Shown: in pieces, positions 1,445 through 64,000 of the stretch | How positions within the stretch are numbered: the first letter of the stretch is position 1 | Layout: every line of letters begins with the position of its first letter | DNA from: an uncultured Flavobacteriaceae bacterium | GTDB taxonomy: Bacteria > Bacteroidota > Bacteroidia > Flavobacteriales > Flavobacteriaceae | Direction of reading: 5' to 3' | NCBI GenBank assembly: GCA_943787295.1 | Contig: CALSLW010000002.1 | Span: forward strand, 338,189 to 402,188 | DNA length: 64,000 nt | The notes under the pieces: model-generated | The model's database searches: none | Told to the model about the DNA's origin: nothing | Seen by the model: only the letters and a program-made list of their open reading frames with translations | Program-made: the position numbers and the translations under genes

Positions 1445-2133
1445 TCGCGGCTGTTCCCCATCACACGCAACACAAAATACATTAGAGTCGCAAGCGATCC
1501 TAATGCAGCAACTACATAAGTTCTTGCCGCCCATTTTAAAGCGTCTTCTGCACCAGCTAATTCTTGCTGGCTAACCATATTTTTACGCTTTAGCCATGCA
1601 ATTGCTCGATTACTAGCATCGTATTCTACTGGCAGGGTAATAAAGCTAAACAAGGTTCCCATCCCAAATAGAACAACTCCTACCATGGCGATCGTCTGGC
1701 CAAAGGCGGTGCCCTGTGCCATAAAAAGCCCCACAAAAATCATATACATAGAAAAGTTTGATGCCACACTCACCATAGGAACTAAAGTAGAGCGCATTTG
1801 CAACCACTCATAGCCAATATTGTGCTGTACAGCATGTCCACATTCATGAGCGGCAACTGCAGCAGCAGATGCATTGCGCTGGGAATACACCCCCTCACTT
1901 AGATTAACGGTCTTCGTTTTTGGGTTGTAATGATCGGTTAACATCCCAGGCGTTGAAACAACTTTTACATCGCGTATCCCGTGGTCAGTCAGCATTTGCT
2001 CTGCAATCTCTTTCCCTGAAAGACCATTGCGCAATGCTACCTTTGAATATTTTTTAAATTTTCGTTTAAGCGTACTGCTAACAATAGAACTTACAATACC
2101 AAAAACAACTAAAACTAGATAATATCCTATCAT
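1441..2133 (-). CDS. Zinc-dependent membrane peptidase (YugP-like)
   Basis: A 230-residue membrane protein of the PF04298 (Zn_peptidase_2, YugP-like) family. The N-terminus is a membrane anchor, followed by a soluble stretch and the metal-binding helix AAVAAHECGHAVQH (an HExxH variant, HECGH, near residue 96). Further transmembrane segments and the EYDAS motif carrying a likely third zinc ligand follow. Family members are membrane metalloproteases whose substrates are largely unknown. It is the last gene of a minus-strand run leuS-SemiSWEET-peptidase with 11 bases to its upstream neighbour, so co-transcription is likely. Confidence 0.85.
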   Translation of the reverse strand: MIGYYLVLVVFGIVSSIVSSTLKRKFKKYSKVALRNGLSGKEIAEQMLTDHGIRDVKVVSTPGMLTDHYNPKTKTVNLSEGVYSQRNASAAAVAAHECGHAVQHNIGYEWLQMRSTLVPMVSVASNFSMYMIFVGLFMAQGTAFGQTIAMVGVVLFGMGTLFSFITLPVEYDASNRAIAWLKRKNMVSQQELAGAEDALKWAARTYVVAALGSLATLMYFVLRVMGNSRD

Positions 2134-2144
2134 GAATTAAAATT

Positions 2145-2396
2145 TTATTTGTGCTTTATTTTAAAGTATATAATCATTATCAAAAGTGATGCCGTGATAC
2201 AATTAGCTAAAATCATCGGCTTACTTTCAATAAAAAAGCCATAAATCCCCCATAAGGAAACCCCGGTAAACATAATTAAATACATCGTTAAAGAGACCCC
2301 GTCTGCCGATTTTGTCTTCCATATTTTATAGGCTTGCGGAACAAATGCCGCAGTTGTCAAAATGGCAGCCATATAACCTATCAACTCTACATACAT
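2145..2396 (-). CDS. SemiSWEET-type (PQ-loop) transporter
   Basis: An 83-residue protein with three transmembrane helices, the size of bacterial SemiSWEET half-transporters that dimerise to move sugars. The signature proline-glutamine pair is in TTAAFVPQAYKIWKT, followed by SADGVSL, a typical PQ-loop continuation. Its ATG overlaps the leuS stop codon by one base (TAATG at 2394-2398), suggesting translational coupling. The substrate cannot be deduced. Confidence 0.85.
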   Translation of the reverse strand: MYVELIGYMAAILTTAAFVPQAYKIWKTKSADGVSLTMYLIMFTGVSLWGIYGFFIESKPMILANCITASLLIMIIYFKIKHK

Positions 2397-5212
2397 TATC
2401 CTACAATATTGATGATTTTTCCTGGTACAACGATTACTTTTTTAGGCGTTCTCCCCTGTAATTGTTTTTGTGTTTGCTCATCTTCAAGGATGATTTGCTC
2501 AATCTCTTTTGGACTTAAGTCCAAAGATAGCTCACGTGTAAAGCGCATTTTTCCATTAAAGGAAACCGGATAGTTCTTCGTGCTTTCTACTAAATACTTT
2601 TCTTCAAAAACGGGGTATTCAACTTGTGAAATAGACTCTTTATGCCCTAGAAGCGCCCATAACTCTTCGGTGATATGTGATGCAAATGGCGATAATAAAA
2701 TCGTCAAAGGTTCTAAGACTGCCCTTTGGTTACATTTTTGTGCGGTGAGTTCATTGACACAAATCATAAATGCACTGATACAGGTATTGAAAGAGAATTG
2801 CTCGATGTCTTCGGTAACCTTTTTAATTGTTTGATGTAAACTCTTTAATGATTCTGCAGAAGGGGCATCATCACTCACATAAAAAGTTTCATCATTGTGA
2901 AACAAACGCCAGGTCTTTTTCAAAAACGAATGCACCCCAGAGATACCCGCAGTGTTCCATGGTTTAGCCTGTTCAATAGGACCTAGAAACATTTCGTACA
3001 TGCGTAAAGTATCCGCCCCATAATCCTCACAAATTTGATCTGGATTGACCACATTATATTTCGATTTTGACATCTTTTCTACCTCGCGACCTACTTTATA
3101 CACGCCCTCTTCTAACACAAAAGTAGCCTCAGCAAACTGAGGCTGCCATTGCTTTACCGCTTCGCAATCCAACTCGTCTGATAGATTTACTAAAGCAATG
3201 TCCACGCGAATCGGTTCTACTTCCTGCCCTTCAATCAAACCTTTAGAAAGGTATTCTTGTGATCCTTTCTTTCTGTACATAAAAGCAGAAGAGCCTAGAA
3301 TCATCCCTTGATTAATCAACTTTTTCGCATATTCATCTACTGGGAGATGGCCCAGATCAAATAAGAATTTTTGCCAAAAACGAGAATACAACAAATGTCC
3401 CGTTGCATGTTCACTTCCTCCTAAATAAAGATCCACATCTTGCCAGTAATTTGCCGCTTCTTTTGATACAAAAGCTGTGTCATTTTGCGCGTCCATATAC
3501 CGATAAAAATACCATGAACTTCCCGCCCAACCTGGCATCGTATTCATTTCTAAAGCAAAGATGGTTTTATTATCGATAAGGTCGTTTGCCACCACCTTTT
3601 CACTCTTTGTATCCCATGCCCAGTGAGTCGCATTCCCTAATGGCGGAGCCCCATCTGCTGTGGGTAAATAATTTTCTACCTTAGGAAGAACTAGGGGCAA
3701 ATGATCCTGGGACAAAGGCACTGGTAAGCCATTTTTATAATACACAGGAATAGGCTCTCCCCAATAACGTTGACGACTAAATATCGCATCGCGCAAACGG
3801 TAGTTTATGGTTCCTTCTCCCGAGCCAGTAGTTTCAAGATGAGCGATAATCGCCTTCATTGCGGCTTTGTATTCCAGACCATTTAGAAAGTCAGAATCTT
3901 GCAATTTTACGCCTCCACTTTTATCTGCATAGGCCTCTTCAGAAATATCTGTATCAGCAAAAATATTCTTAATCGGAATCTCAAAATGCTTCGCAAAGTC
4001 ATAATCTCTTTGGTCCCCACAAGGGACCGCCATAACTGCACCTGTTCCATAGCCTGCTAAAACATAGTCTCCTATCCAGATTGGAACTCGCTCTTGGGTA
4101 AGTGGATGTAAAGCATAGGCACCAGTGAACACTCCACTAATTGTTTTTACATCTGCCATGCGATCGCGTTCAGAACGCTGTGCAGATTTTTCAATATAAG
4201 CCTCAACCGCTTCTTTTTGTTCAGCAGTGGTGATGGTTTTAACCAATTCTAATTCTGGAGCAAGGGTCATAAAAGTCACCCCGTATAATGTATCAGGTCT
4301 AGTGGTAAAAACCTCTAACTGCGCGTCGTGGTTTTCTACTTGAAAACGCACTTTTGCCCCTACAGACTTCCCAATCCAGTTACGCTGCATCTCTTTTAAA
4401 GAATCTGGCCAGTCAATTTTATCTAAACCTTGAAGTAAACGCTCTGCATAAGCACCAATACGCATACTCCACTGTTTCATTTTCTTTTTTGTTACTGCAA
4501 AACCTCCTCTTTCTGAAACTCCGTTTATGATTTCATCATTGGCTAATACCGTGCCTAGCTCTGTACACCAATTCACTTCTGTTTCAGAAATGTAAGTCAA
4601 GCGATAATCTAAGAGAATGGCCTGCTTTTCTTCTTCAGAAAAAGCGCTCCACTGTTCTGCTGTAAATTTTGGCGAAGCTACATCACATTCAACCTGCACT
4701 GAAGTATTTCCCTCTTTTTCAAAAACCGCAATTAACGCTGAAATGGGCTTTGCTTTATCTTCTATTTTGTCGTAATAGGAATCAAATAATTGCAAGAAAA
4801 TCCACTGTGTCCAGCGATAAAAGTCGGGGTTAGACGTTCTCACTTCTCTACTCCAATCAAACGAAAACCCGATGCGATCTAATTGTTCTCTATAGCGATT
4901 AATATTGGTTTTAGTGGTTAATTCTGGGTGCTGCCCTGTTTGAATCGCATACTGTTCTGCAGGCAAGCCAAAGGAATCATAGCCCTGTGGATGTAATACA
5001 TTAAATCCTTTATGACGCTTGTATCGCGCATAGATATCACTGGCGATATACCCTAAAGGATGCCCAACATGCAATCCTGCCCCAGAGGGATAAGGAAACA
5101 TGTCTAACACATAATACTTTGGCTTATCAGAATTATTTTGAACTTGAAAAGTCTTTTTTTCGGCCCAATAAGCTTGCCGCTTTTTTTCGATTTCTAGGAA
5201 GTTGTACCCCAC
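2396..5212 (-). CDS. leuS: Leucyl-tRNA synthetase
   Basis: A class I aminoacyl-tRNA synthetase that attaches leucine to tRNA-Leu. It has 938 residues, typical of Bacteroidota LeuS. The HIGH-type motif is HVGH at residues 48-51 after FPYPSGAGL. The CP1 editing domain follows, with TTRPDTLYGVTFM and a later GYGTGAVMAVP. The KMSKS loop (EKMSKSKYNVV) lies near residue 711, and the anticodon-binding domain is C-terminal. The start is a GTG at 5212; no nearer ATG gives the conserved N-terminus GYNFLEIE. First gene of a minus-strand operon with the SemiSWEET and zinc-peptidase genes. Confidence 0.97.
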   Translation of the reverse strand: MGYNFLEIEKKRQAYWAEKKTFQVQNNSDKPKYYVLDMFPYPSGAGLHVGHPLGYIASDIYARYKRHKGFNVLHPQGYDSFGLPAEQYAIQTGQHPELTTKTNINRYREQLDRIGFSFDWSREVRTSNPDFYRWTQWIFLQLFDSYYDKIEDKAKPISALIAVFEKEGNTSVQVECDVASPKFTAEQWSAFSEEEKQAILLDYRLTYISETEVNWCTELGTVLANDEIINGVSERGGFAVTKKKMKQWSMRIGAYAERLLQGLDKIDWPDSLKEMQRNWIGKSVGAKVRFQVENHDAQLEVFTTRPDTLYGVTFMTLAPELELVKTITTAEQKEAVEAYIEKSAQRSERDRMADVKTISGVFTGAYALHPLTQERVPIWIGDYVLAGYGTGAVMAVPCGDQRDYDFAKHFEIPIKNIFADTDISEEAYADKSGGVKLQDSDFLNGLEYKAAMKAIIAHLETTGSGEGTINYRLRDAIFSRQRYWGEPIPVYYKNGLPVPLSQDHLPLVLPKVENYLPTADGAPPLGNATHWAWDTKSEKVVANDLIDNKTIFALEMNTMPGWAGSSWYFYRYMDAQNDTAFVSKEAANYWQDVDLYLGGSEHATGHLLYSRFWQKFLFDLGHLPVDEYAKKLINQGMILGSSAFMYRKKGSQEYLSKGLIEGQEVEPIRVDIALVNLSDELDCEAVKQWQPQFAEATFVLEEGVYKVGREVEKMSKSKYNVVNPDQICEDYGADTLRMYEMFLGPIEQAKPWNTAGISGVHSFLKKTWRLFHNDETFYVSDDAPSAESLKSLHQTIKKVTEDIEQFSFNTCISAFMICVNELTAQKCNQRAVLEPLTILLSPFASHITEELWALLGHKESISQVEYPVFEEKYLVESTKNYPVSFNGKMRFTRELSLDLSPKEIEQIILEDEQTQKQLQGRTPKKVIVVPGKIINIVG

Positions 5213-6461: not shown

Positions 6462-7243
6462 GTGAACTTATCGCATTGCTCCTTGGTATTGTTCAAGGCT
6501 TAACAGAATTTTTACCGGTTTCTTCTAGTGGGCATCTAGAACTTGCAAAAGCCTTAACACAGACAGACTTTATGGCTAAAGAAAGCCTTCTTTTCACCAT
6601 TGTACTGCACGCTGCAACTGCATTAAGTACTGTAGTGTTTTTTAGAAAAGACATAGGGTTTATCTTAAAAGAGCTATTGACTTTTAAAGTAAATCCTTCG
6701 TTTTATTTTGCGCTTTATATTCTTCTTTCAATGATCCCTGCCGTTTTTGTTGGTTTGTTTTTAGAAGATTTTATCACCCAATTATTTGAACAAAACATTG
6801 TTTTGGTCGGGGCTATGCTATTATTCACAGGAGTATTATTGTTCTTAGCCGATAGAGCAAAATCCACCACAAAAGACATTAACGCTAGCAATGCAATAGT
6901 AATAGGAATATTACAGGCAATCGCTATTTTACCGGGGATTTCAAGAAGCGGAGCAACAATTGCCACCGCAGTCTTGCTAGGAATTGACAAAGAAAAAGCA
7001 GCTCGCTTTTCTTTTTTAATGGTGGTTCCGCTAATCCTGGGAAGCATGGCAAAAAGTCTTTTAAATGCCGAAACCATTGTGACAGACACTTCTTTACTTC
7101 CAATAATTATTGGCTTTATTGCTGCTTTCTTTACTGGACTTGCGGCCTGTAAATGGATGATTGCTATGGTAAAAAAAGCACAGCTTAAATACTTTAGCTG
7201 GTATTGTTTCACTGTAGGGCTACTCGCATTAATTCTTGCTTAA
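6458..7243 (+). CDS. uppP: Undecaprenyl-diphosphatase
   Basis: UppP (BacA) dephosphorylates undecaprenyl pyrophosphate to recycle the lipid carrier for peptidoglycan and other envelope polymers. The 261-residue integral membrane protein carries both family signatures: QGLTEFLPVSSSGHLEL at residues 14-30 with the catalytic glutamate, and PGISRSGATIATA near residue 158 with the catalytic arginine/serine. It is translationally coupled to the DUF3098 gene and followed after two bases by truB. Confidence 0.96.
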   Translation: MSELIALLLGIVQGLTEFLPVSSSGHLELAKALTQTDFMAKESLLFTIVLHAATALSTVVFFRKDIGFILKELLTFKVNPSFYFALYILLSMIPAVFVGLFLEDFITQLFEQNIVLVGAMLLFTGVLLFLADRAKSTTKDINASNAIVIGILQAIAILPGISRSGATIATAVLLGIDKEKAARFSFLMVVPLILGSMAKSLLNAETIVTDTSLLPIIIGFIAAFFTGLAACKWMIAMVKKAQLKYFSWYCFTVGLLALILA

Positions 7244-9328: not shown

Positions 9329-11737
9329 ATGAAAAGAAAAAATAAATGGAGTTTTTGGGAAGCGATTGCTCGCCTAATCTTACGCAATAGAATTGCATTA
9401 ATCATCGCGCTTTTTGCTGTAACTGCCTTCTGGGCCTCACAGTGGAAAAATATGCGCTTCACTTTTACCGAAGCGAATTTACTTCCAGATGATCATCCAG
9501 AAAATGTTAGCTACAATGAATTCCTTTCGCTCTTTGGTGAAGAAGGAAGTGTTATTCTAATTGCTATAAAAGACGCCAACCTCTTTACCCCAGAAAAACT
9601 TTCTGCCTGGAAAGGACTGAGTGAAAAGCTTCAATCCTTTAACGAGATTGATTTTGTCCTCTCTATCGACAACGTTAAAGAACTGGTCAAAAACAAGAAG
9701 AAAAATAAATTTGATTTGCAACCTTTGCTAGAGGATATCCCACAAGACAGCCTTGCATTTTCCCTCTTCAAACAAAAGTTGTTTTATGAACTCCCTTTCT
9801 ATGAAAACCTGTTATTGAATAAAACTTCTGGTACGGTTCGCATGGCCGTTTACATGAAACAAGAGGTGGTCAATAGCGCTGCGCGAAAAGATTTTATTTT
9901 CAAAACATTTATTCCTTTGATGGATGCGTTCGAGAAAGAACACGGGTTAAAAGTGCGTCGCTCTGGAATGCCCTATATCCGCACCTTGAATGCGCAAAAC
10001 ATTGTCGATGAAATTGGGATGTTTGTTTTTGCAGCAATGGGGGTAACTTCGCTTATCTTCTTTTTATTCTTTCGTTCGATTCGCGCTACGATTATCTCTA
10101 TGGTCGTTGTCCTATTTGGCGTAGCCTGGGCATTAGGAACATTGGGATTACTGGGCTATGAAATCACAGTGCTTACTGCTTTGATTCCTCCCCTAATCAT
10201 TGTGATAGGGATCCCTAATTGCATCTTCTTGATCAATAAATACCAGCACGAGGTAGCCAAACACGGGAATCAAATCAAATCTCTGCAACAGGTGATTGTC
10301 AAAATAGGGAACGCCACCTTGATGACAAACTTAACGACCGCATCTGGTTTCGCCACTTTTATCCTTACCAATAGTAAGTTGCTTAAAGAATTTGGGATTG
10401 TAGCTTCGATTAATGTTGCGGGGATTTTTGTGCTTTCATTACTGATTATCCCTATTGCGTATAGCTTTATGCCACTACCCAGTAAAAAGCATTTAAGTCA
10501 TTTAAACAATAAGTCGATTGATCGTTTTGTCAAATGGATGGAAAATAAAGTGCGACACAAACGCTTGAACACTTATATCTTTGCTTTAATCGCACTAGTA
10601 ACCAGTATTATAGGGATATATACCATTAATATTTCTGGGAGTATTTTAGAGGACATGCCAAAAAAACAATCCTTTTTTAAAGACATATTGTTTTTTGATA
10701 AAGAGTTTGATGGCATAGTTCCATTAGAGGTCTTGATCGATACCAAAAGAAAAGATGGTGTCTTAAAACTCTCTACGCTTAAACGTATGGAACGCTTAAA
10801 CAAGGTGATTGACGACATTCCAGAACTGTCGTCTCCTACCTCTGTGGTTAATGCCATTAAGTATGCTAAACAAGCGTATTATAACGGAAATCCTAACTAT
10901 TACACCCTACCCTCTGCGCAAGAGAATCGTTTTATTCTTTCTTATTTTGATCGCTCTGGAAATGGGGACAATGTCTTGAATAATTATTTAGATGATACTG
11001 GGCAATATGCACGACTCACCACCTTTATGACAGACATCGACACCGAAAGGATGGAGGAAATAGAGATAGAACTCAAACGCGAGATTGCAAAAATATTTCC
11101 TGAAGAGCGCTACAATGTCTCCTTAACAGGAAAAGCCTTGCTATTTTTAAAAGGAACCAAATACTTGATAAAAAACCTCGTTTTGTCTTTGGTCTTGGCC
11201 ATCTTTTTAATTGCGCTTTTTATGGCCTATTTGTTCCGGTCTTTTAAAATGATCATCATTTCACTTATTCCAAACTTATTGCCTTTATTGATTACCGCAG
11301 GAATGATGGGCTTTTTAGGGATTCCTTTAAAACCATCGACCATTTTGGTCTTTAGTATAGCCTTTGGGATTTCTGTGGATGATACCATTCATTTTTTAGC
11401 AAAATACCGCCAAGAGTTGATCGATTCAAAATGGAAAATACAACGCTCTGTCTATGCTGCCTTAAAAGAAACCGCCTTGAGTATGTTCTATACTTCGATT
11501 GTTTTATTTTTTGGTTTTTCTGTTTTTATGAGTTCAGAATTTGGTGGGACAGTCGCTTTAGGAGGGCTTATTTCAATGACCCTTCTTTTTGCCATGCTGG
11601 CAAATTTAATCCTACTCCCCTCTCTATTGATATCGTTAAAAGATACGGTAGCAAATGAGGAGGTACTAAAAGAACCAAAGATTCAAATCATCGAGCCCTC
11701 TGAAAATGAAAAGGGAATAGGAAAGAAAAATAAATAA
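9329..11737 (+). CDS. RND superfamily exporter (MMPL type)
   Basis: An 802-residue membrane protein with two repeats of one TM helix, a large extracytoplasmic domain, then five TM helices, the layout of the MMPL/Patched-like RND family. The first extracytoplasmic domain follows a TM at residues 20-38 and starts FTEANLLPDDHPE. The second half has FSIAFGISVDDTIHFLAKYRQEL, the typical TM10 region with the aspartates that carry protons. Such proteins export lipids or hydrophobic compounds by proton antiport; the substrate is unknown. The C-terminal tail is charged and cytoplasmic. It lies 28 bases after frr. Confidence 0.88.
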   Translation: MKRKNKWSFWEAIARLILRNRIALIIALFAVTAFWASQWKNMRFTFTEANLLPDDHPENVSYNEFLSLFGEEGSVILIAIKDANLFTPEKLSAWKGLSEKLQSFNEIDFVLSIDNVKELVKNKKKNKFDLQPLLEDIPQDSLAFSLFKQKLFYELPFYENLLLNKTSGTVRMAVYMKQEVVNSAARKDFIFKTFIPLMDAFEKEHGLKVRRSGMPYIRTLNAQNIVDEIGMFVFAAMGVTSLIFFLFFRSIRATIISMVVVLFGVAWALGTLGLLGYEITVLTALIPPLIIVIGIPNCIFLINKYQHEVAKHGNQIKSLQQVIVKIGNATLMTNLTTASGFATFILTNSKLLKEFGIVASINVAGIFVLSLLIIPIAYSFMPLPSKKHLSHLNNKSIDRFVKWMENKVRHKRLNTYIFALIALVTSIIGIYTINISGSILEDMPKKQSFFKDILFFDKEFDGIVPLEVLIDTKRKDGVLKLSTLKRMERLNKVIDDIPELSSPTSVVNAIKYAKQAYYNGNPNYYTLPSAQENRFILSYFDRSGNGDNVLNNYLDDTGQYARLTTFMTDIDTERMEEIEIELKREIAKIFPEERYNVSLTGKALLFLKGTKYLIKNLVLSLVLAIFLIALFMAYLFRSFKMIIISLIPNLLPLLITAGMMGFLGIPLKPSTILVFSIAFGISVDDTIHFLAKYRQELIDSKWKIQRSVYAALKETALSMFYTSIVLFFGFSVFMSSEFGGTVALGGLISMTLLFAMLANLILLPSLLISLKDTVANEEVLKEPKIQIIEPSENEKGIGKKNK

Positions 11738-17003: not shown

Positions 17004-17028
17004 AATCTACAGTGTTTAATGAGGGTTC

Positions 17029-17799
17029 TTACTTCTTGTGAGCCACAAGGATGTCAACTAGCGTGATGGAAGCGTCTTCCATATCGTTAACAATACCGTC
17101 GATTTTTGCAACAATGTAGTTATAAAAAATTTGAAGAATGATCGCTACAACAAGACCAAATACTGTAGTTAAAAGGGCAACTTTAATCCCTCCTGCTACT
17201 AAAGATGGCTGCATGTCTCCAGCTGCTTCAATTTTATCAAAGGCTTGAATCATCCCGATTACAGTACCCATGAAACCAAGCATCGGTGCAAGGGCGATAA
17301 ATAATGAGATCCAAGAAACGTTTTTCTCTAATTGACCCATTTGAACACCACCGTAAGCAACAACAGCTTTTTCAGCACTTTCTACTCCTTCATCAACACG
17401 GTCTAAACCTTGATAGAAGATAGAAGCTACAGGCCCTTTAGTGTTACGACATAATTCTTTTGCCGCTTCAACACCACCACTTGATAATGCTTCTTCTACA
17501 CCATCGGTTAATTTTTTAGTGTTTGTTGAGGCTAAGTTTAAGAAGATGATTCTTTCGATAGCAATCGCTAAACCTAAAATCAAACAGATTAATACGATCC
17601 CCATGAATCCTGGTCCACCTTCGATGAAACGCTTTTTTAATTCTTGGGTAAAAGAGGCAGACTCTGCAGGTGCATCAGCTTGCTCTTCTTCTTGTACAAT
17701 AGAAGAGATAGTAGGATTGTTTAAGTTAGTTGTATTGGCATTAGCGGTAAAACTTACCATAAACATGCTCATTACAAGGGTAACGAATAATTTTTTCAT
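17029..17799 (-). CDS. exbB: ExbB/TolQ/MotA family proton channel protein
   Basis: ExbB forms the pentameric proton channel that drives TonB. The 256-residue protein begins with a cleavable-looking signal peptide (MKKLFVTLVMSMFMVSFTANA), as in Flavobacteriaceae homologues. An acidic linker, TM1 (PGFMGIVLICLILGLAIAIERI), a cytoplasmic helical region and the conserved TM2-TM3 core (SLFIALAPMLGFMGTVIGMIQAF then VALLTTVFGLVVAI) follow. First gene of the operon; it serves the TonB receptors in this window and elsewhere. Confidence 0.92.
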   Translation of the reverse strand: MKKLFVTLVMSMFMVSFTANANTTNLNNPTISSIVQEEEQADAPAESASFTQELKKRFIEGGPGFMGIVLICLILGLAIAIERIIFLNLASTNTKKLTDGVEEALSSGGVEAAKELCRNTKGPVASIFYQGLDRVDEGVESAEKAVVAYGGVQMGQLEKNVSWISLFIALAPMLGFMGTVIGMIQAFDKIEAAGDMQPSLVAGGIKVALLTTVFGLVVAIILQIFYNYIVAKIDGIVNDMEDASITLVDILVAHKK

Positions 17800-17980
17800 T
17801 TTGATGAATTTTGTGTTCTGTTTATTTAAGGATTAAAGATAGAAAAAAATATGGTTCAACATAATTTTTAATGCAGAGGCAACAATAGTTTGTTTTGTTC
17901 TATATCTTTTAAACGTCGAGGGCTTAATATCTTAAGTGTTTTAAGGAGATAAAAATAGTTTATTTTTAACGAGTCAACAG

Positions 17981-18138
17981 TTATAATGCTAATAGCACGG
18001 CATTTGTCCAGCCAAAACCGTCTTGATTAGGGTATTCTCCTTCTCCATCAGCTAAACTCAAATCCATGATATTATACTTTTCTATTATTTTTCCTGATCC
18101 TTCTCTTCTTCGAAAGTAGTTGATCGCTTGAATGACCT
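17981..18138 (-). pseudogene. Trehalase C-terminal remnant (A)
   Basis: The 340-base gap between exbB and the fibre gene is not empty. On the minus strand it reads [11 protein letters not shown] followed by [21 protein letters not shown] and a stop (17981-17983). This is the C-terminal signature of GH37 trehalases (GGGGEYP-Q-GFGWTN). Just upstream, QVIQAINYF continues the homology in another frame, so there is at least one frameshift. Only about 50 codons survive. The homology begins immediately after the stop of the fibre gene at 18141, so that cassette's end lies at or inside the old trehalase gene. Confidence 0.75.
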
Positions 18139-18140
18139 GA

Positions 18141-20801
18141 CTAATAATTGGATTTAAATTTCAAATATTGTTCTCTATAAACTTTTTTAACCCTCTCAAA
18201 AACCTTCTCTTTAAAAATCTTGTCATTCATTAATTTTTCTAGACCAGTACTCTTCATTGTAGAGGCATTATAGATGTTTTGGAGAATTTTATCTGTCTCA
18301 AGTATCATCTCGTCTGTAAAGAAAGGAGGAATACTATTGAGTATATCAGCCTCATTTTGGCTAGTATTATTAGATTTAACCCTTGGTGATATAGCCGTAT
18401 TGTCTTTTTTAGATTCGCCATTTTTTTCTTGAAGTATAATTGCTTCTAGGGTTGCCAATCTTTTTTCAATTGATCGTATTTTTATTTGTTGTGAATCCAC
18501 AAGATCTGCCATATCATTTGCATTCAATCCAATTGCCATTTTTACATAGCCATAGGTGTTTTCAAGTGAACTTGTCCAAGCCACGCCGACTATTTTTTTG
18601 TAGTCCCTAGCTTTAAGATCAGACTTAGCTACACCAATTCCTACACCGTTATTTTCTCCCGAAGGAAGTATATAGTCTCCCGGGAATACATTTCCTTTAA
18701 CTTTTACGGGTACTTGACCCAAAAAAGCTACTCTTTCATAAAATTCTTTATTTTTTTCTAGTGGCATGTTTCCTAAAACAGCTGGACTGGTTGAAATCAC
18801 TAATATTCGCTGTACATCCTCTGAAATAAATTTAGAGATTTTTCCATTATATACACCGACAATGTCACCTTCGAGAATAGTTTCATTTGAATTTAATCTT
18901 TCTAACCATTCAGCATAATCTCCTGATCCCGATTGATAGGTTACTCCAATATCTGCCTCTGCAAAAGTATTGTAGGTTATCAGATTAGCAGTCACCATTG
19001 CCAATTCTGCGGCGGCGGCGGCTATACAGCCTCCACATGGCCCAGCAGAAGCTCCTATACCAGCAACTACAATTGGAATCGCGGCTGAGACAACATTTAC
19101 TCCAGCTAAAGCAAGTTCTGCAGCATAAATTGTAGTGTCATAAATGTAGTCTCTACTCTGTTGTTTATTTTCCCAGGTCTCACCTTCTATTCTACCAACA
19201 ACCGTTCCTGAAGAATTAAAAAAGGTCATGAAATTATGATCATTATTGGGGGTTCCTGCAGTTGTTTTCACAGCGATCCCATTTGCAGATCCTTGCACTC
19301 TCAAGGGATAATTATTATAGTTTGAACTTCCACTGTCCAATCCAGCATTAATTGTTACACGATCACTAAAATCTGCTGTATTTGCAACTGCAAGAGTACC
19401 TGAAAGTGCAGTGTTATTACTTACATTTAGTGTACTATTTAGTTGGGTAGCTCCTGCAACTGTTAATAAATTCCCTAGAACTGTATTTCCTGTAGCGTTA
19501 AGTGTATTGTTTATTTGTGTCGCTCCCGCCACAGTTAGTGTATTATTTAATAAAGCACTTCCGGTGAGTTGAAGTGAACTATTCAAAGTTGCTGTACCGT
19601 CTAATACTAAGTTGCTGTTGAGATCTGTAACCCCATCTACATTTAGTGAACCCGTCAAATCAACTGGACTATTTCCTGTTACAGTTAATGAATTATTTAA
19701 AGTTGAAACACCATCTATATTTACGGTATTATTAAAATCTGTGGCTCCATCAACATTTAATATTCCTGTTAAATAAGTTGGACTTCCATTATTTACTCTA
19801 AGTGTGCTAGATAAAGTTGTGGTCCCTACTACTGCTAAATCACTTTCAATTTCGGCATCTCCTCTAACATTTATTTCTGAATTAAGATCTACATCCCCCA
19901 ATACACTCATTCCTGATTGAAAATTTGAAAAACCATAAACAGTCATGGCACTCATAAATCTTGAATTTCCACGAACAAAAAGCTTTTCATTTAAATCTGC
20001 AGGAGCATTAATTTCTACAAGAGAATTAAACGTTGATGTATCAGAAACTGTTAATGAATTTTCAAGCAAGGTATCGCCTTCAACAAATAATTCACTGTTT
20101 AATTCAGTTACACCCACAACAGATAGAGTTCCCTGTAATGCTGTTGCGCCATTAACCGTTAATGCATCTGATAAATCATTTTTGTTTGAAGCTGAATTTA
20201 AATTCAAAATCGTCCCTCCATCTACCGTTAGTAGTCCAGAAATAGCTGTATCTCCATCAATCGAAATGTTTTCTGTAAGAATCGCGTCTCCACGCACCAC
20301 CAAGCTCCCTGCCACATCTACTTGTTGTTCAAAACTCGAAGAACCTGAAATATTTAAATCCCCAGAAGCAGTAATATTTCTATGCGCAGCAAATGGAATA
20401 TACAATAAATCTTGCGTGGCTAATGGAGCAAAACTACTCCCACCAGTTAGATCTATTTTAACCTCTAAGCCCCTTCTATTTCCATTCCACTCGATTTCGT
20501 TAAAGTTACCAATTATTGGTACACCTTGTCCAATTATAAGGTTAACTAAACCATTTCCATCTGTATTAGTTAATTGGGTTTCTTGATAAATTATATTGTT
20601 GTTTACTCCAGTGATTGTAAATTCAAAAGCTACTACTGCGTTTACTAGGAGGTCGTTTTGAGAATTATACCCTGGTAACTCAATTGCTTCATTACTCAGG
20701 ATTACCGCTTGATAACTTATTCCATCGGTTTGTGCATATGCCCTTATTGATAAAACCATGAATATCGCGACTGCTATTCTATTGATGAAAAGCTTATTCA
20801 T
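18141..20801 (-). CDS. Secreted fibre-like repeat protein with C-terminal chaperone-like domain
   Basis: An 886-residue protein from the ATG at 20801, with signal peptide [23 protein letters not shown]. Residues up to about 145 form a domain opening [12 protein letters not shown], a start seen in many Bacteroidota surface proteins. Then come about 26 repeats of 12 residues with the pattern L-x-V-x-G-x-T-x-L-x-x-x, predicting a beta-solenoid or trimeric beta-helix shaft. An Ala-rich hydrophobic stretch with GPCGGC follows. The next domain ([46 protein letters not shown]) resembles the intramolecular-chaperone (Peptidase_G2-like) region of phage tail spikes. A coiled coil ([16 protein letters not shown]) and a charged tail end it. 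Function inferred: surface fibre or adhesin. Confidence 0.7.
19355..20370 (-). repeat. Twelve-residue (36-bp) tandem repeats within the fibre gene
   Basis: About 26 consecutive units, mostly exactly 12 codons, for example [36 protein letters not shown] and [12 protein letters not shown]. Three or four units carry short insertions (YLTGI and VDLTGS types). The DNA copies are diverged, so this is an old array rather than a recent slippage product. Confidence 0.85.
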
Positions 20802-57771: not shown

Positions 57772-60381
57772 TTGGCTAAGAAAGCAAAAGAAACCCCCTT
57801 AATGAAACAATACAACCAGATCAAGGCAAAATACCCTGATGCCTTGCTTTTGTTTCGCGTGGGTGATTTTTATGAAACCTTTGGCGCAGACGCAGTCAAA
57901 GCCTCAAAAATATTAGGAATTATTCAAACCAAACGCGGGGCTGGAAGTACCAGTGAAACGGAACTCGCCGGTTTTCCGCATCACTCTTTGAATACGTATT
58001 TGCCTAAGTTGGTCAAAGCGGGATGTCGTGTCGCTATTTGTGATCAATTAGAAGATCCTAAAATGACCAAGACCATCGTCAAGCGCGGGGTGACAGAACT
58101 AGTCACGCCGGGGGTCGCTCTAAACGACGATGTTTTAGAACAAAAGAAAAACAATTATCTAGCAGCAATCACCCAAGGAAAAAAAGTTTGGGGAATTGCA
58201 TTTTTAGATATTTCTACTGGAGATTTTTTAGTGAGTGAAGGGAATATGAATCACCTCAACCAACTCATTCAAAAGTTTTCTCCCGCAGAAATTCTAGTCC
58301 CTAAACCCCTTAAATCTACTTTTGGGGCTTTATTTGGCACAGAACTCAACCCCTTTTTTCAAGAGGATTGGGTTTTCCAGGATACTTTTGCGAATGAGTT
58401 ATTACAACAACATTTTAAGACCAAGAGTTTAAAAGGTTTTGGTTTAGAAAACTTTAGTACTGGGATTATCAGTGCTGGAGCGGTTTTGCATTACCTCTCT
58501 GAAACCCAGCACAACAAACTGCAACACATTACCAGCCTGCAAAAAATTGCCAGTGATGATTTTGTGGGGATTGACCGTTTTACCGCGCGGAATCTTGAAT
58601 TGTTGTATTCTACCTCTATTGGGGGAGTCGCCTTGATTGATGTAATCGATTATACCGCTACTGCAATGGGGGGGCGTTTATTGCGTAAGTGGGTGAGTTT
58701 TCCGTTAAAATCTGTCGAGAAAATTCAAGAAAGACATGCGGTTGTCAAAGCCTATATCGCAGCAGATGATTCTACTGTTCAACTGCGCCACCACCTAAAG
58801 AAGATTGGTGATATTGAACGCCTAATGGCAAAGATTTCGACGCAAAAGATTAGTCCACGTGAACTCAATATCCTACAGCAATCCATTCTTGAAAGTAATC
58901 ATATTAAGCAAACCCTTTCAGAGAGCGGACAAAAAGAACTGGTCGCACGTGCGGCTCAACTTCCGCCCTGTCAAAAACTCAATGAAACCATCGCCAACAC
59001 CCTAAAAGAAGATGCGCCAGTAGCCACTTCAAAAGGGAACTTTATTGCAGATGGATTTTCGGCTGAGTTAGACGAATTGCGAGCCCTCTTACATTCTGGG
59101 AAAGGACATTTAGACGCAATGCTGGAACGCGAAACCGAAGCAACTGGAATACCTTCCTTGAAAATTGCTTTTAACAATGTCTTTGGCTACTATATTGAAG
59201 TACGTAATACCCACCGCGATAAAGTTCCAGAACGATGGACCCGTAAGCAAACCCTAGTCAACGCAGAGCGTTATATCACCGAAGAACTCAAGGAATATGA
59301 AAGTAAAATCTTAGGGGCTGAAGATAAGATTCAACAGCTCGAATTGCACTTTTACCAGGACCTACTCGAGCAATTGCAAAATGACTTAAGCGAACTGAAA
59401 CAAGCCGCTGTCTCCCTAGCACAAATCGATTGCTTACAAAGTTTTGCACTATTGGCCACAAAACACCATTATTGTTGTCCAGAAATTGAGGCAGGTACTG
59501 ATCTTGAAATTAGCGAAGGGCGTCATCCTGTGATCGAGCAACAACTGCCCGCCGGAGAGGCTTATATTGCTAATGACCTTGTACTCAATCGCGAGGAACA
59601 ACAAATCATTATGATTACTGGGCCCAATATGTCGGGGAAATCTGCCCTTTTACGACAGACTGCCTTGATAGTTTTACTCGCACAAATGGGAAGTTTTGTC
59701 CCCGCAAAAGCAGTTAAAATGGGGGTTGTCGATCATGTCTTTACCCGTGTGGGTGCAAGTGATAATATCTCTTTAGGAGAGTCCACTTTTATGGTCGAGA
59801 TGAACGAATCTGCCGCCATTCTCAATAATATTACCGCAAGTAGTTTAGTCTTATTAGACGAAATAGGACGAGGGACTTCTACCTATGATGGAATTTCCAT
59901 TGCCTGGGCCATTGCAGAATACTTGCACCAACACCCCAGCCAACCCAAAACATTATTCGCCACCCACTACCACGAACTCAACGAGATGGAAGGGCGCTTT
60001 GATCGCATCAAAAATTACAATGTCGCGGTAAAAGAGTTAAAAGACAGTGTACTGTTTTTAAGAAAACTGACCAAAGGAGGAAGCGCGCACAGCTTTGGGA
60101 TACATGTAGCCAAAATGGCCGGCATGCCCATCCAAGTTGTCTCTACGGCAGAACGCAAGCTAAAAGTGCTTGAAAAAAGCCATCAAGAAGACGATCGAAA
60201 AGAAGCCTTAAAAAAAGATAACAGTGAAATGCAACTGAGTTTTATCAATCTTGACGACCCACTTTTAGAAGAATTAAAAGATGAAATCATTGATCTTGAC
60301 ATCGATACGCTTACCCCAGTAGAAGCCTTGATGAAACTCAATAGTATCAAACGTCGCCTAGGCGGAAAAAGTCCTGCTTAA
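57772..60381 (+). CDS. mutS: DNA mismatch repair protein MutS
   Basis: MutS recognises mismatches and recruits MutL. The 869-residue protein starts at TTG 57772 (MAKKAKETPLMKQYNQIK), in line with homologues; no ATG precedes the conserved mismatch-binding motif FRVGDFYETFG. Domains in order are mismatch binding, connector, core with NVFGYYIEVRN, and the ATPase with Walker A GPNMSGKSALLRQ near residue 617, then ESTFMVEMNESAAIL and LDEIGRGTSTYDG. A C-terminal dimerisation segment with DDPLLEELKDEIIDLDIDTLTPVEAL is present. Confidence 0.97.
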   Translation: MAKKAKETPLMKQYNQIKAKYPDALLLFRVGDFYETFGADAVKASKILGIIQTKRGAGSTSETELAGFPHHSLNTYLPKLVKAGCRVAICDQLEDPKMTKTIVKRGVTELVTPGVALNDDVLEQKKNNYLAAITQGKKVWGIAFLDISTGDFLVSEGNMNHLNQLIQKFSPAEILVPKPLKSTFGALFGTELNPFFQEDWVFQDTFANELLQQHFKTKSLKGFGLENFSTGIISAGAVLHYLSETQHNKLQHITSLQKIASDDFVGIDRFTARNLELLYSTSIGGVALIDVIDYTATAMGGRLLRKWVSFPLKSVEKIQERHAVVKAYIAADDSTVQLRHHLKKIGDIERLMAKISTQKISPRELNILQQSILESNHIKQTLSESGQKELVARAAQLPPCQKLNETIANTLKEDAPVATSKGNFIADGFSAELDELRALLHSGKGHLDAMLERETEATGIPSLKIAFNNVFGYYIEVRNTHRDKVPERWTRKQTLVNAERYITEELKEYESKILGAEDKIQQLELHFYQDLLEQLQNDLSELKQAAVSLAQIDCLQSFALLATKHHYCCPEIEAGTDLEISEGRHPVIEQQLPAGEAYIANDLVLNREEQQIIMITGPNMSGKSALLRQTALIVLLAQMGSFVPAKAVKMGVVDHVFTRVGASDNISLGESTFMVEMNESAAILNNITASSLVLLDEIGRGTSTYDGISIAWAIAEYLHQHPSQPKTLFATHYHELNEMEGRFDRIKNYNVAVKELKDSVLFLRKLTKGGSAHSFGIHVAKMAGMPIQVVSTAERKLKVLEKSHQEDDRKEALKKDNSEMQLSFINLDDPLLEELKDEIIDLDIDTLTPVEALMKLNSIKRRLGGKSPA

Positions 60382-60435: not shown

Positions 60436-60510
60436 GCGAAAGTAGCTCAGGGGTAGAGCATCACCTTGCCAAGGTGAGGGTCGCGGGTTCAAATCCCGTC
60501 TTTCGCTCCA
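60436..60510 (+). tRNA. tRNA-Gly (anticodon GCC)
   Basis: 75 bases including an encoded CCA (60508-60510). The acceptor GCGAAAG pairs with CTTTCGC, the anticodon stem-loop CACCTTGCCAAGGTG carries GCC and the T-loop is TTCAAAT. It lies 11 bases upstream of tRNA-Leu and is presumably co-transcribed with it. Confidence 0.96.
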
Positions 60511-60521
60511 CAAAAAGCTTT

Positions 60522-60606
60522 GCTCGAGTGGTGGAATTGGTAGACACGTTGGACTTAAAATCCAATGACCATTGCGGTCGTGCGGGTTCAAGTCCCGCCT
60601 CGAGTA
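60522..60606 (+). tRNA. tRNA-Leu (anticodon UAA)
   Basis: An 85-base class II tRNA. The 5' acceptor GCTCGAG pairs with 3' CTCGAGT, leaving a G-T wobble at the first pair. The anticodon loop CTTAAAA carries UAA, there is a variable arm, the T-loop is TTCAAGT and the discriminator is A; CCA is not encoded. The last 24 bases before the wobble base are duplicated at 63317-63340, marking it as an integration target. Confidence 0.95.
60581..60604 (+). repeat. tRNA-proximal copy of the 24-bp repeat
   Basis: Begins TGCGGGTTCAAGTCCCGC and lies within the T-arm and acceptor of tRNA-Leu; identical to 63317-63340. Confidence 0.8.
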
Positions 60607-60608
60607 CT

Positions 60609-60636
60609 AAACCCTCCTTTTTAGGAGGGTTTTTTT
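60609..60636 (+). terminator. Terminator of the tRNA pair
   Basis: AAACCCTCC - TTTTTA - GGAGGGTTT plus T tract, two bases after tRNA-Leu. Confidence 0.85.
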
Positions 60637-60686
60637 ATGCAAAGAATTTTAGATTATTAAATCAAATAAAACGGATGTACCTAAAT

Positions 60687-60712
60687 AAAAAAGCCACTTT
60701 ATAAAGTGGCTT
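60687..60712 (-). terminator. Terminator of the S9 peptidase gene
   Basis: Stem AAGCCACTTT/AAAGTGGCTT (60691-60700 with 60703-60712); on the minus strand it is followed by a T tract, about 45 bases after the peptidase stop. Confidence 0.8.
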
Positions 60713-60754
60713 CCTTATAATATAAATATAATCTCTTTGATGGATAATGAAATT

Positions 60755-63211
60755 TTAACCCTTAGGCTTGATTTCCTGTTTTATGAGGTCTTTTTTCTTG
60801 TTTTTAACATGTCTTTCAAGCCACTGATCTTGTTCCCAGATTAAATGGAGAATTGTTTCTTTTGCTCTGTAGCCGTGGCTCTCCTTTGGAAACATTACTA
60901 ATCGTGTTGTTGCTCCTAACCCCTTAAGTGCATTATAATATCTCTCACTCTGAAGCGGATATGTACCAGAGTTATTATCTGCTTTTCCATGAACAAGTAA
61001 TAATGGAGTTTTCATCTTCTCAGCATGCATAAAAGGAGACATTGTGTAATAAACTTCTGGAGCTTCCCAATATGACCTAGACTCACTTTGAAAACCAAAG
61101 GGTGTTAGGGTCCTGTTATAGGCTCCGCTTCGAGCGATACCCGCAGCAAATAAATTGGAATGACTTAATAAGTTAGCAACCATAAAAGCACCGTAACTAT
61201 GTCCACCAACAGCAACTCGCTCCCTATCCGCAAGACCTTTATCAACTACTGCATCAATTGCTGCTTCAGCATTTGCAATCAATTGTGTTCTAAAGCTATC
61301 ATTTGGTTCTTTATCTCCCTCACCAATAATAGGGAAAGCCGCACGATCTAAAACTACATATCCTTGATTTACCCAATAAATTGGTGAACCCCAATTCGGT
61401 GATACAAAACGATTTGGATTATTGGTTTTTTGCGAGGCACTAGACTTATCTTTAAACTCTCTAGGGTAGGCCCACAATATCATGGGTAAGGGCTCTGATT
61501 GGTTAGGCTTATACCCACCAGGAACATAAAGTATTCCGCTTAATTCTATACCATCATTTCGCTTATAAGTAATCAGCTCCTTTTTGACACTTTCTAGGGA
61601 TTTAAAAGGGTTCTCAAAGAAAGTCAGTTGTTCTAATGAGTCTTTGCTAAACAAATCTCTAACAAAATAATTAGGATACTCGCTTTTTGATTCAATACGA
61701 ACCCGCAACTTATTTTTTTGATAATCAAAATCATTAATCTGCTCGTACTTATCAGTGTATATTGATTGATAAATTCTATTAGTGCTTTTTTCTACTAAAT
61801 TAATTTCATCTAGAAAAGGGAATTGACCTAATTTTGAAAAGCCTGCTCCGATAAGAAAAGCTGAATTGTTTTTTAAGGCCAAAACCCGCTCACCATACTT
61901 TCCTTTTTTAGTAACAAATCTACCAGGATCACTGTACCGGTCTTGATAGTTACGGTCATATAATAGTTGTGCGCTTTTTTGGGGGTTAGAAGGATTAAAG
62001 ACATATGTTTTGGTATTTCTATTATTCCACCATCTGTCAAGGACAATAGCCAAAGAATCATCTCCCCAGATTACCTGAGAAAATCTATTTTTTATTTGGG
62101 TTAATTGTTCTGGTTCATTTTTAAATGGTGCTTCCCATTGGTATAATGCGTCTCTGTAAACTACCTCAACTTCAGGGTCTCCATTATCAAGGGCTTTTAC
62201 ATAGAAAATTGTTGAGGGTTGATCGTTTCGCCAGGAGATTCGTCTTTTTTCTGTGCTTGCAGACATAAATCCTTTTGGTAATACTTCCTGAAGAGGGCTA
62301 TCTGAAATTACTTTAATCCTTTTAGCATTCAAGTCATAAACATGTGTTTCAGTAGGAAAACGATTATAAGGGACTATATATGAAAAAGGGGGTTTAACAA
62401 AAGAGATCAAAACATAGGCTCCATTAGGGGAAACTTGAACGTCACGATACATTTTAGCGGATAAAAATGGTGTTCTATTCCCTTTTAAGTCTACGAGGTC
62501 AATTTCAGACCGACTTAACTGTTCAAAGTTCTTTACATCTACTGGATTTTTAATAAGGTCTTGATAGGTTCTATTCTGAGCTTTTTCACCATTATTTTCG
62601 GTAACCTTTGGCCCTGTTGGAATAATTTCAGCTTGGTCTAGAATGGGCTTCCGGTCTTTCGGAAGAAACTTAACTAACATTCTCTTACTGTCCTTTAGCC
62701 AATTTATGCTTTTTCCCATGCTCGCATTTAATGGTGAGGAAACTAATCTTTTTGCCAATTTAGTCTCTATATCTAAGACCCAAAGTTCAACTCCATTCTC
62801 AGAAGTATGGGTCATCGCAATTTTTTTCTCATCTGGTGACCAAGTAAAATTACTAAGTTTGGGGTTTTCTGGGAGTCCTTCTACTAGGACCCTCTCTTTC
62901 CCCTGATTTAGGGATACAATTTCAACCTTATTATAATAAGTTGTTCGACTACCTATATAACGCTTGGGATCAACCCTTAGACCTGCAAGACGTAATTCCT
63001 TTCTTGATAAATCTGCAATGTTTTTATAGGTCGGGCGAGAAACTAGAACTAATACTGTATTTTTTGAATTGCTTAGAACTGCTGGTGCTAAGTTTACATC
63101 AATCAATTCAAGTAATTCTTTCTTTGGAGTTTGATACCCTAGTTCTTCTTGTGCAAAAACATGGGTCGTAAAGATAAGGCTAGCGAGTGATACAAACTTT
63201 TTTATGCTCAT
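60755..63211 (-). CDS. Exported S9 family (prolyl oligopeptidase-like) serine peptidase
   Basis: An 818-residue exported peptidase from the ATG at 63211 (signal MSIKKFVSLASLIFTTHVFA). The N-terminal two thirds form a beta-propeller with WD-like blades (KLSNFTWSPDEKKIAMTH, VQVSPNGAYVLISFV). The C-terminal alpha/beta-hydrolase domain starts around GIELSGILYVPGGY. Catalytic Ser is in AVGGHSYGAFMVANLL near residue 672, Asp in VHGKADNN near 742, His in PKESHGYRAKE near 778. It resembles glutamyl-endopeptidase-like S9 enzymes. The frame opening at 63343 runs into the tRNA remnant and is not coding there. It is the only gene in the tRNA-Leu-bounded insert. Confidence 0.9.
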   Translation of the reverse strand: MSIKKFVSLASLIFTTHVFAQEELGYQTPKKELLELIDVNLAPAVLSNSKNTVLVLVSRPTYKNIADLSRKELRLAGLRVDPKRYIGSRTTYYNKVEIVSLNQGKERVLVEGLPENPKLSNFTWSPDEKKIAMTHTSENGVELWVLDIETKLAKRLVSSPLNASMGKSINWLKDSKRMLVKFLPKDRKPILDQAEIIPTGPKVTENNGEKAQNRTYQDLIKNPVDVKNFEQLSRSEIDLVDLKGNRTPFLSAKMYRDVQVSPNGAYVLISFVKPPFSYIVPYNRFPTETHVYDLNAKRIKVISDSPLQEVLPKGFMSASTEKRRISWRNDQPSTIFYVKALDNGDPEVEVVYRDALYQWEAPFKNEPEQLTQIKNRFSQVIWGDDSLAIVLDRWWNNRNTKTYVFNPSNPQKSAQLLYDRNYQDRYSDPGRFVTKKGKYGERVLALKNNSAFLIGAGFSKLGQFPFLDEINLVEKSTNRIYQSIYTDKYEQINDFDYQKNKLRVRIESKSEYPNYFVRDLFSKDSLEQLTFFENPFKSLESVKKELITYKRNDGIELSGILYVPGGYKPNQSEPLPMILWAYPREFKDKSSASQKTNNPNRFVSPNWGSPIYWVNQGYVVLDRAAFPIIGEGDKEPNDSFRTQLIANAEAAIDAVVDKGLADRERVAVGGHSYGAFMVANLLSHSNLFAAGIARSGAYNRTLTPFGFQSESRSYWEAPEVYYTMSPFMHAEKMKTPLLLVHGKADNNSGTYPLQSERYYNALKGLGATTRLVMFPKESHGYRAKETILHLIWEQDQWLERHVKNKKKDLIKQEIKPKG

Positions 63212-63316
63212 TGGATAATTTTTATTCAAATTATAACTTTTTTCTGGATCAATTGATAAAACAAAGTTTACTCTAAATGTATAATAATGAATTCCACATC
63301 GCTTTCTCACTCCACT

Positions 63317-63340
63317 TGCGGGTTCAAGTCCCGCCTCGAG
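63317..63340 (+). repeat. Distal copy of the tRNA-Leu 3' end
   Basis: Identical to 60581-60604; followed by CA, then CTTTAGAACCCG. The rest of a tRNA is not present upstream of it, so it is not a second tRNA gene. Confidence 0.8.
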
Positions 63341-63474
63341 CACTTTAGAACCCGTAATAGATTGTTTTACATGATGTTGCGGATTTTTTTATTGAAGCAT
63401 AGGAATAGGGTTTGATATGTAATCTATTTTTTTTGTATACATTGGTTTTATTATTAACCATAAATCAATTCTAT

Positions 63475-64000
63475 ATGAAGACTAATTCAATATTAATAAG
63501 TGAAAAAAGAAAAGTTTTTAAATTAAACACAGCATCACAAAAAATAGAATGGGATGTTTCTTTTGAACATAAAATAGCTGGAATCTCAAGAGTCAATGAA
63601 TATGTGTTTATTTCCACTGTTAGTAATTGGGGGAAATACCATACCAGTTTATTAAAATTTAATAGTGGAAAACTGCTCTGGACAATAAATAAGATACTTT
63701 ATCATGTTCATGTCTTTGAAGAAACTATTATATATATTGATAAAACCAAAGAGGTAGTTTGTTTATTACTAAATAGTGGTGAAGAAAAGTTCAGAGTCAA
63801 GATGGATTTCAAATGGTATGAATCTCCAAAAATGGCACTGATTGAAAATAATATATACCTATTTTCGACAAAGAGGACTAAAGTTTTAAATCTTAATACT
63901 GGAAGCTTATCAGAAGCTAAATTACCGGCAAACATAAATCCTAAGGAATTAACTTTTATAGTAGATGAGTTTCAAATCGAAATAAACACCTTACCCTCTG
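63475..64000 (+). CDS. Beta-propeller-like protein, 5' part (cut by window edge)
   Basis: An ATG at 63475 opens a frame that runs 175 codons to the window end without a stop. It begins MKTNSILISEKRKVFKLNTA. It has repeated short blades resembling PQQ-type propellers, such as KLNTASQKIEWDVS, LLKFNSGKLLWTI and VLNLNTGSL, each a strand with the LNTG/FNSG turn. No signal peptide is visible. The region is AT-rich and lies just past the distal tRNA-Leu repeat. Function unknown. Confidence 0.6.
   Translation, partial: MKTNSILISEKRKVFKLNTASQKIEWDVSFEHKIAGISRVNEYVFISTVSNWGKYHTSLLKFNSGKLLWTINKILYHVHVFEETIIYIDKTKEVVCLLLNSGEEKFRVKMDFKWYESPKMALIENNIYLFSTKRTKVLNLNTGSLSEAKLPANINPKELTFIVDEFQIEINTLPS

Follow-up and report, generated by a model that had tools for sequence, protein, structure and literature searches.

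A one-gene peptidase segment as a probable new layer of an additive genomic island at tRNA-Leu(UAA) in a flavobacterium

The peptidase segment lying directly behind tRNA-Leu(UAA) in the genome of an uncultured Flavobacteriaceae bacterium is, in our judgement, likely to belong to an additive genomic island located at the 3' end of this tRNA gene, as its tRNA-proximal and probably its newest layer; in this reading the tRNA with its T72 was left intact and an att-like scar remains further downstream. The stretch analysed, called the window here, comprises 64,000 nucleotides of contig C2 of this genome (G000). G-numbers designate genomes and g-numbers genera, G010 is the sister species, and relative coordinates (rel) take the end of tRNA-Leu(UAA) as zero. 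The region is laid out as follows.

57772-60381, plus strand: ORF, presumably mutS, forming the left flank and used as yardstick for species divergence
60436-60510, plus strand: tRNA-Gly(GCC), found by ARAGORN
60522-60607, plus strand: tRNA-Leu(UAA), found by ARAGORN, very probably the insertion target; its T72, at 60605, forms a G-U pair with G1
60609-60637, plus strand: terminator behind tRNA-Leu, a hairpin (-15.8 kcal/mol, z -4.6) with a T run after it
60686-60722, minus strand: terminator of the peptidase gene, a hairpin of -16.0 kcal/mol (z -5.2)
60755-63211, minus strand: S9D-type peptidase of 818 aa, probably secreted, the single cargo gene (ORF, Pfam, match to chloroplast glutamyl endopeptidase, CGEP)
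about 63250, no strand: approximate right end of the segment common to G000 and G010, where the alignment stops
63317-63340, plus strand: exact 24-bp copy of the tRNA-Leu 3' end, an att-like remnant, followed by C at 63341
63347-63387, plus strand: weak terminator-like hairpin behind the 24-bp copy (-10.7 kcal/mol, z -2.5; 4 of 200 shuffles are at least as stable)
63475-64000, plus strand: start of a weakly propeller-like ORF of 211 aa that continues to about 64110, past the window (Pfam match far below cut-off)

Between the tRNA end and the 24-bp copy the peptidase gene is the only long ORF; the remaining frames are shorter and overlapping, and no recombinase gene was found among them. The cargo had been described in advance as one exported peptidase with its own terminator, which agrees with the ORF and with the hairpin on the minus strand; export is probable, judged by eye from an N-terminus that resembles a signal peptide. 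The start at 63211 was our choice; in the mechanical ORF list the frame opens with a GTG at 63343, next to the copy of the tRNA end. The hairpin at 63347-63387 is possibly a decayed former tRNA terminator, and the ORF at 63475 reached 20.6 bits in Pfam against a cut-off of 133 bits. On the left side, tRNA-Gly adjoins tRNA-Leu(UAA) in all 12 other genus loci examined.

The sequence TGCGGGTTCAAGTCCCGCCTCGAG at 60581-60604, which is the tRNA 3' end up to position 71, is repeated exactly at 63317-63340. The perfect 24-bp copy 2.7 kb downstream, reported in the preliminary description, was thereby confirmed, as were the bases that follow it, T in the tRNA (60605, giving G-U) and C behind the distal copy (63341). 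The match is beyond chance: in a local alignment the tRNA end plus terminator scored 54 at the copy, whereas 100 first-order Markov resamplings reached at most 35 and the reverse strand 23. Among three tRNA matches in its own genome, that at 63317-63340 is the only short 3'-end copy (E 3.8e-6). It begins at the T-arm, and no further part of a tRNA lies upstream of it. An exact-copy search found no 24-bp copy in G010, although the peptidase segment is present there. About 70 nt separate the end of the common segment from the copy in G000, and the 70-75 nt or so at the right junctions of G000 and G010 match neither each other nor the other fetched loci, chance stretches of 14-15 nt aside. Because G010 lacks the copy and these roughly 70 nt in G000 are unmatched, the copy may belong to an older insertion than the peptidase segment. 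G085, a genome of another genus, has 21 bp of the tRNA-Leu 3' end repeated exactly at a site away from the tRNA (contig C8, 11438-11458), possibly an island end.

An insertion of DNA at the tRNA-Leu 3' end is very probable, and the comparison with the sister species points to a recent common source of the segment, recency being judged by dS: one genome would have received it from the other, or both would have drawn on one pool. From the tRNA end onward the common segment shows 96.8% identity over 2642 bp, and it stops about 40 nt upstream of the peptidase start codon; past it, G010 has about 75 unrelated nucleotides and then a truncated next gene, of which only the 3' end is present. G010 is the nearest genome to G000 by mutS among those measured, with 84.8% identity at the DNA level and 93% in the protein, against 84% for G013 and 66% for G210 and G171. 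For the peptidase gene of G000 and G010, dS was 0.085 and dN 0.011, whereas dS of six other genes was 0.78, 0.87, 1.03 (mutS), 1.15, 1.27 and 2.86, the last value belonging to a short gene near saturation. At fourfold-degenerate sites the peptidase genes differ at 15 of 310 positions (4.8%) and the six other genes at 45-59%. The low divergence of the peptidase is not accounted for by purifying selection on its protein.

Strong peptidase matches (E 0) occur in four of the 19 genus genomes, G000, G010, G003 and G013, and beside tRNA-Leu only in the first two; the homologues of G003 and G013 (66%) lie at other places in the genome. In a tree of 18 peptidases, the proteins of G000 and G010 group with those of genera g154 and g193 (100/99) and those of G013 and G003 with g68 (100/100). 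In a mutS tree of 11 proteins the four genus members stand together, with modest values of 80/89, and g81 beside them, while g154, g193 and g68 lie across a 100/100 branch; the comparison of the two trees assumes orthology across genera. Third-position GC is 0.278 in the peptidase gene versus 0.395 in mutS. A general location of this peptidase near tRNAs was not supported, with any tRNA or tmRNA in the examined DNA of only 12 of the 80 peptidase loci retained, and tRNA-Leu(UAA) only in that of G010. A phage as carrier was not supported either, as a scan of viral contigs with six peptide patterns found no relative. In G003 (locus L065, 2717-12008), the peptidase homologue and another S9-type match were found within 10 kb of a tmRNA gene, which is a known insertion site.

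An alternative route, which we consider unlikely but worth serious thought, is that the peptidase entered an existing island by homologous recombination through the shared flank of mutS, tRNA-Gly and tRNA-Leu, and that an earlier and unrelated insertion left the 24-bp copy behind as its scar. It would agree with a segment that in G010 is present without the copy and that in G000 ends some 70 nt before it, and with the absence of a recombinase. It would also agree with the identity of G000 and G010 in both tRNA genes and in the 54-nt spacer between mutS and tRNA-Gly. However, this spacer is identical in the pair G008 and G013 too, and was rejected as the mark of a recombination tract. The right junctions, matching nothing in each other or elsewhere among the fetched loci, likewise give no sign of right-hand homology.

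For the layered island that we favour, the DNA behind the same tRNA in other members of the genus was compared, and the site looks, by its sequences, to have been reused for insertions. Nine different first ORFs of at least 100 aa were found behind the tRNA in ten of the 13 genus genomes compared. The first ORF is the peptidase in G000 and G010, a different S9 peptidase in G017 (Pfam S9 and S9_N), an FMN oxidoreductase in G007, a PorP/SprF protein in G008 and an alpha/beta hydrolase, 1 kb away, in G018; those of G009, G011, G012 and G013 had no Pfam match at 0.001. G003 and G015 have no ORF of this length within 600 nt, and G001 is absent from the list, its contig ending 242 nt behind the tRNA. 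In G003 a block of the shared backbone lies 309 nt behind the tRNA. The S9 peptidase of G017, with an S9_N propeller domain, occupies 17015-19159 of locus L059 on the minus strand, directly behind tRNA-Leu.

The closest approach to an empty site was G009, where the gene that follows 63340 in the window starts 205 nt behind the tRNA (85.5% over 635 bp), further modules come in the same order as in the window, and the best peptidase match has an E value of only 9.5e-11, so that no close homologue is present. DNA from beyond 63340 had been expected beside the tRNA of insert-free relatives, and in G009 it is indeed found there, with an inexact junction: about 105 nt after the window's copy and the first 180 nt behind the G009 tRNA gave no convincing alignment. 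A precise empty site for the peptidase insert was not found among the genus loci compared. A filled and an empty site were apparently met elsewhere in the genus. G013 carries a tyrosine recombinase gene of 442 aa at rel 1719-3047 (locus L055, 13982-15310, with tRNA-Leu at 17027-17113; Phage_integrase 1.4e-8), followed at rel 3238 by a copy of the tRNA end with four mismatches in 23, and the DNA from this copy onward is 98.5% identical over 197 bp to the DNA directly behind the tRNA of G001. The two genomes look like a filled and empty pair for a 3.2-kb element.

G010 at rel 3129-3333 and G013 at rel 6670-6872 have 205 bp in common (84%), which end in a look-alike of the tRNA end plus terminator and then diverge. 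This shared element end was noted in two different contexts, near 8880 of L049 in G010 and near 9800 on the minus strand of L055 in G013. The tRNA-end copy of G010 scored 70 against a null maximum of 34. The G013 copies at rel 3238 and 6828 scored 30 each, with a 95% point of 29 and a maximum of 37 in the null, neither being significant alone. The other ten of 12 genomes scanned gave no plus-strand match above the null maximum, which G007 equalled; a reverse-strand match in G007 scored 44 against a null maximum of 39, and terminator hairpins alone can therefore beat this null. Since the other matches stay within the null, or can be raised above it by hairpins, weight was placed on the exact copy of G000, the copy of G010 and the G013-G001 pair. 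As to recombinases, G000 has six PF00589 matches on contig C1, the window being on C2, and relatives of the G013 recombinase at E 1e-20 were found neither in G000 nor in G010 (genomes 89% and 91% complete).

Some further features of the locus were recorded. An outer-membrane receptor gene of G000 is split into two ORFs (L046, 13399-14940 and 12573-12908, minus strand), the receptor being one ORF of about 790 aa in G007, G008, G009, G013 and G018; this is either a broken gene or an assembly error. A small frame with GRQKGTPNKLTK lies at about 12325-12590 of L046 on the minus strand. Behind tRNA-Leu in G010 there is a degenerate relative, and perhaps one in G015 as well; the frame could be part of a mobile unit.

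In the mechanism we propose, short foreign DNA consisting of one S9D peptidase gene, some upstream DNA and a terminator was placed directly behind the tRNA. The host tRNA would have been kept intact with its ancestral T72, and the 24-bp copy would be an att-like scar, marking where the older DNA beside the tRNA was displaced. The insertion was most likely the work of a tyrosine recombinase targeting the tRNA end, either lost since then or supplied in trans; between G000 and G010 the route may have been site-specific or homologous through the shared tRNA flank. The C of the scar would come from the att site of the element or from later mutation. Because the mismatches of the G013 copy fall in its tRNA-like part and host-like DNA follows right after, that case points to the element as the source of the tRNA-like half in scars of this kind, and by analogy with G013 the C at 63341 could be element-borne. 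A bolder reading, which appears doubtful to us, is that the peptidase is a recombinase-free one-gene cassette, which tRNA-Leu-specific tyrosine recombinases belonging to other elements carry in trans from species to species, in the way of integron cassettes with a distant integrase; the other single genes behind the tRNA in relatives would then be more such cassettes.

It is very improbable that 63317 was once occupied by a complete second tRNA-Leu gene, of which duplication or rearrangement spared only the 3' end. Elsewhere in the family a full-length gene with C72 and an identical 27-nt end does exist, but the homology begins at the T-arm with no rest of a tRNA upstream, and a pair of tRNA-Leu(UAA) genes was seen here in none of the 13 genus loci fetched. 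In G001 a second tRNA match of 88% lies on another contig.

The preliminary description had further supposed that the integration replaced the tRNA end with an element-borne version bringing in the wobble T, and relatives without the insert contradict this. G1-T72 was found in 36 of the 38 tRNA-Leu(UAA) genes read (37 genomes), including those of G010, with the insert, and G009, without it. The 14 genus genomes read, of 19, all have T72, with and without the insert, and the 86-nt tRNA is identical in ten genus genomes, G000 included. Only G055 and G283, both genomes read from genus g38 (L203, L204), have C72, the other 35 genomes having T72; the tRNA of G055 agrees with the distal copy over 27 nt, and a search for the C form in 397 family genomes gave matches in two, the window's own copy and G055. 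The sample came from a relatives search over 40 genomes, with loci from 30 of them, G036 giving two genes. Eight further loci were added from genomes picked for the peptidase or the C variant, G055 having been found by the search for the C form and G283 being its genus mate. G006 was dropped, its gene being cut off at position 55 with the other half on another contig, and G002, G005, G014, G016, G022, G025, G029, G030, G032 and G033 are outside the sample. Ten viral contigs with a tRNA-Leu end, obtained with a pattern open to T or C, all have T72 in whole tRNA-Leu(UAA) genes and look by sequence like two phage types.

Since T occurs in 36 of 38 genes and C72 is confined to two genomes of g38, T72 is judged ancestral and the host tRNA unaltered; C72 as the ancestral state is rejected. 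Of what had been predicted for insert-free relatives, the DNA after 63340 was found close behind the tRNA of G009 and the C was not. We regard it as barely conceivable that the host originally had C72 and that a T72 end of the element replaced it, making the wobble pair. Integration at a tRNA end does place the original host end at the far side of the element, and real C72 genes exist in G055, with the same 27 nt, and in G283. Yet T72 in nearly all genes read, throughout the genus and in the viral contigs speaks against this history, which would require that a single lineage changed to C on its own and then changed back. The C at 63341 is either a decayed base, changed by later mutation, or an element-borne one. 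Escherichia coli tRNA-Leu(UAA) also has G1-U72, and no paper on G1-U72 in connection with tRNA-Leu was found among openly licensed papers. An odd tRNA base pair next to an insertion should be looked up in relatives first, before the insertion is held responsible for it. An assembly artefact in this metagenome-assembled genome is hardly credible. In its favour, no genome other than G000 shows the right junction with the copy; against it, the tRNA-peptidase junction is present also in G010 and the gene order after the copy also in G009.

The cargo protein is, by its sequence, an S9D family (CGEP-type) homologue, with the catalytic triad and a near full-length match. Pfam gave Peptidase_S9 at 1.2e-25, NCBIfam only matches below cut-offs, and residues 24-803 of 818 match the CGEP structures 10eo-10eu at E 6e-180. 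The Ser, Asp and His motifs GGHSYGAF (670), HGKADNN (742) and KESHGY (777) align with CGEP, as do W and Y of ILWAYP (579) with those of FWSYP, which are presumably W689 and Y691 of CGEP. In a preprint on the enzyme, the CGEP triad is given as S781, D855 and H889, a hinge loop is said to favour glutamate, and bacterial homologues are described as having no plant C-terminal prosequence (PMC12871690). The window peptidase resembles CGEP in the near full-length match and in the three catalytic motifs, and differs in an N-terminus that looks, by eye, like a Sec signal peptide and in a match that stops at residue 803. The cargo would probably digest proteins or peptides outside the cytoplasm, and a preference for cutting after glutamate is possible, going by the family. 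The S9D family has a match at E 1e-100 or better in 132 of 397 family genomes, and the cargo is therefore an ordinary one for Flavobacteriaceae.

No paper on this tRNA-Leu site was found in the openly licensed literature. The site gives a one-gene example, with the recency of transfer measured, of presumably marine flavobacteria with small genomes gaining degradative enzymes at a tRNA gene. Its type is already known: in fGI-2 of Ca. Methylopumilus (Methylophilaceae), which is presented as an additive flexible genomic island, the final 20 bp of a tRNA turn up repeatedly as copies (PMC10872708). As in fGI-2, DNA was apparently added beside a tRNA gene, tRNA-end copies may recur and the contents vary between relatives (PMC10872708); in contrast to fGI-2, the copies at the window site are few and mostly degenerate, and the probably newest unit is one gene. 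Tycheposons, as portrayed in the same paper, are similarly bounded by tRNAs and carry cargo in aquatic bacteria, but measure 4-200 kbp and have a tyrosine recombinase (PMC10872708), whereas the window insert is 2.7 kb and has none. The recombinase gene inside the element that characterises integrative elements such as tycheposons and IMEs is thus missing from the insert, and the trait of additive islands, a tRNA as repeated insertion point with differing contents, is found at the site. The locus resembles a further case of such an island, here in a flavobacterium, whose unit is unusually small and has no recombinase and for which a recent transfer was measured.
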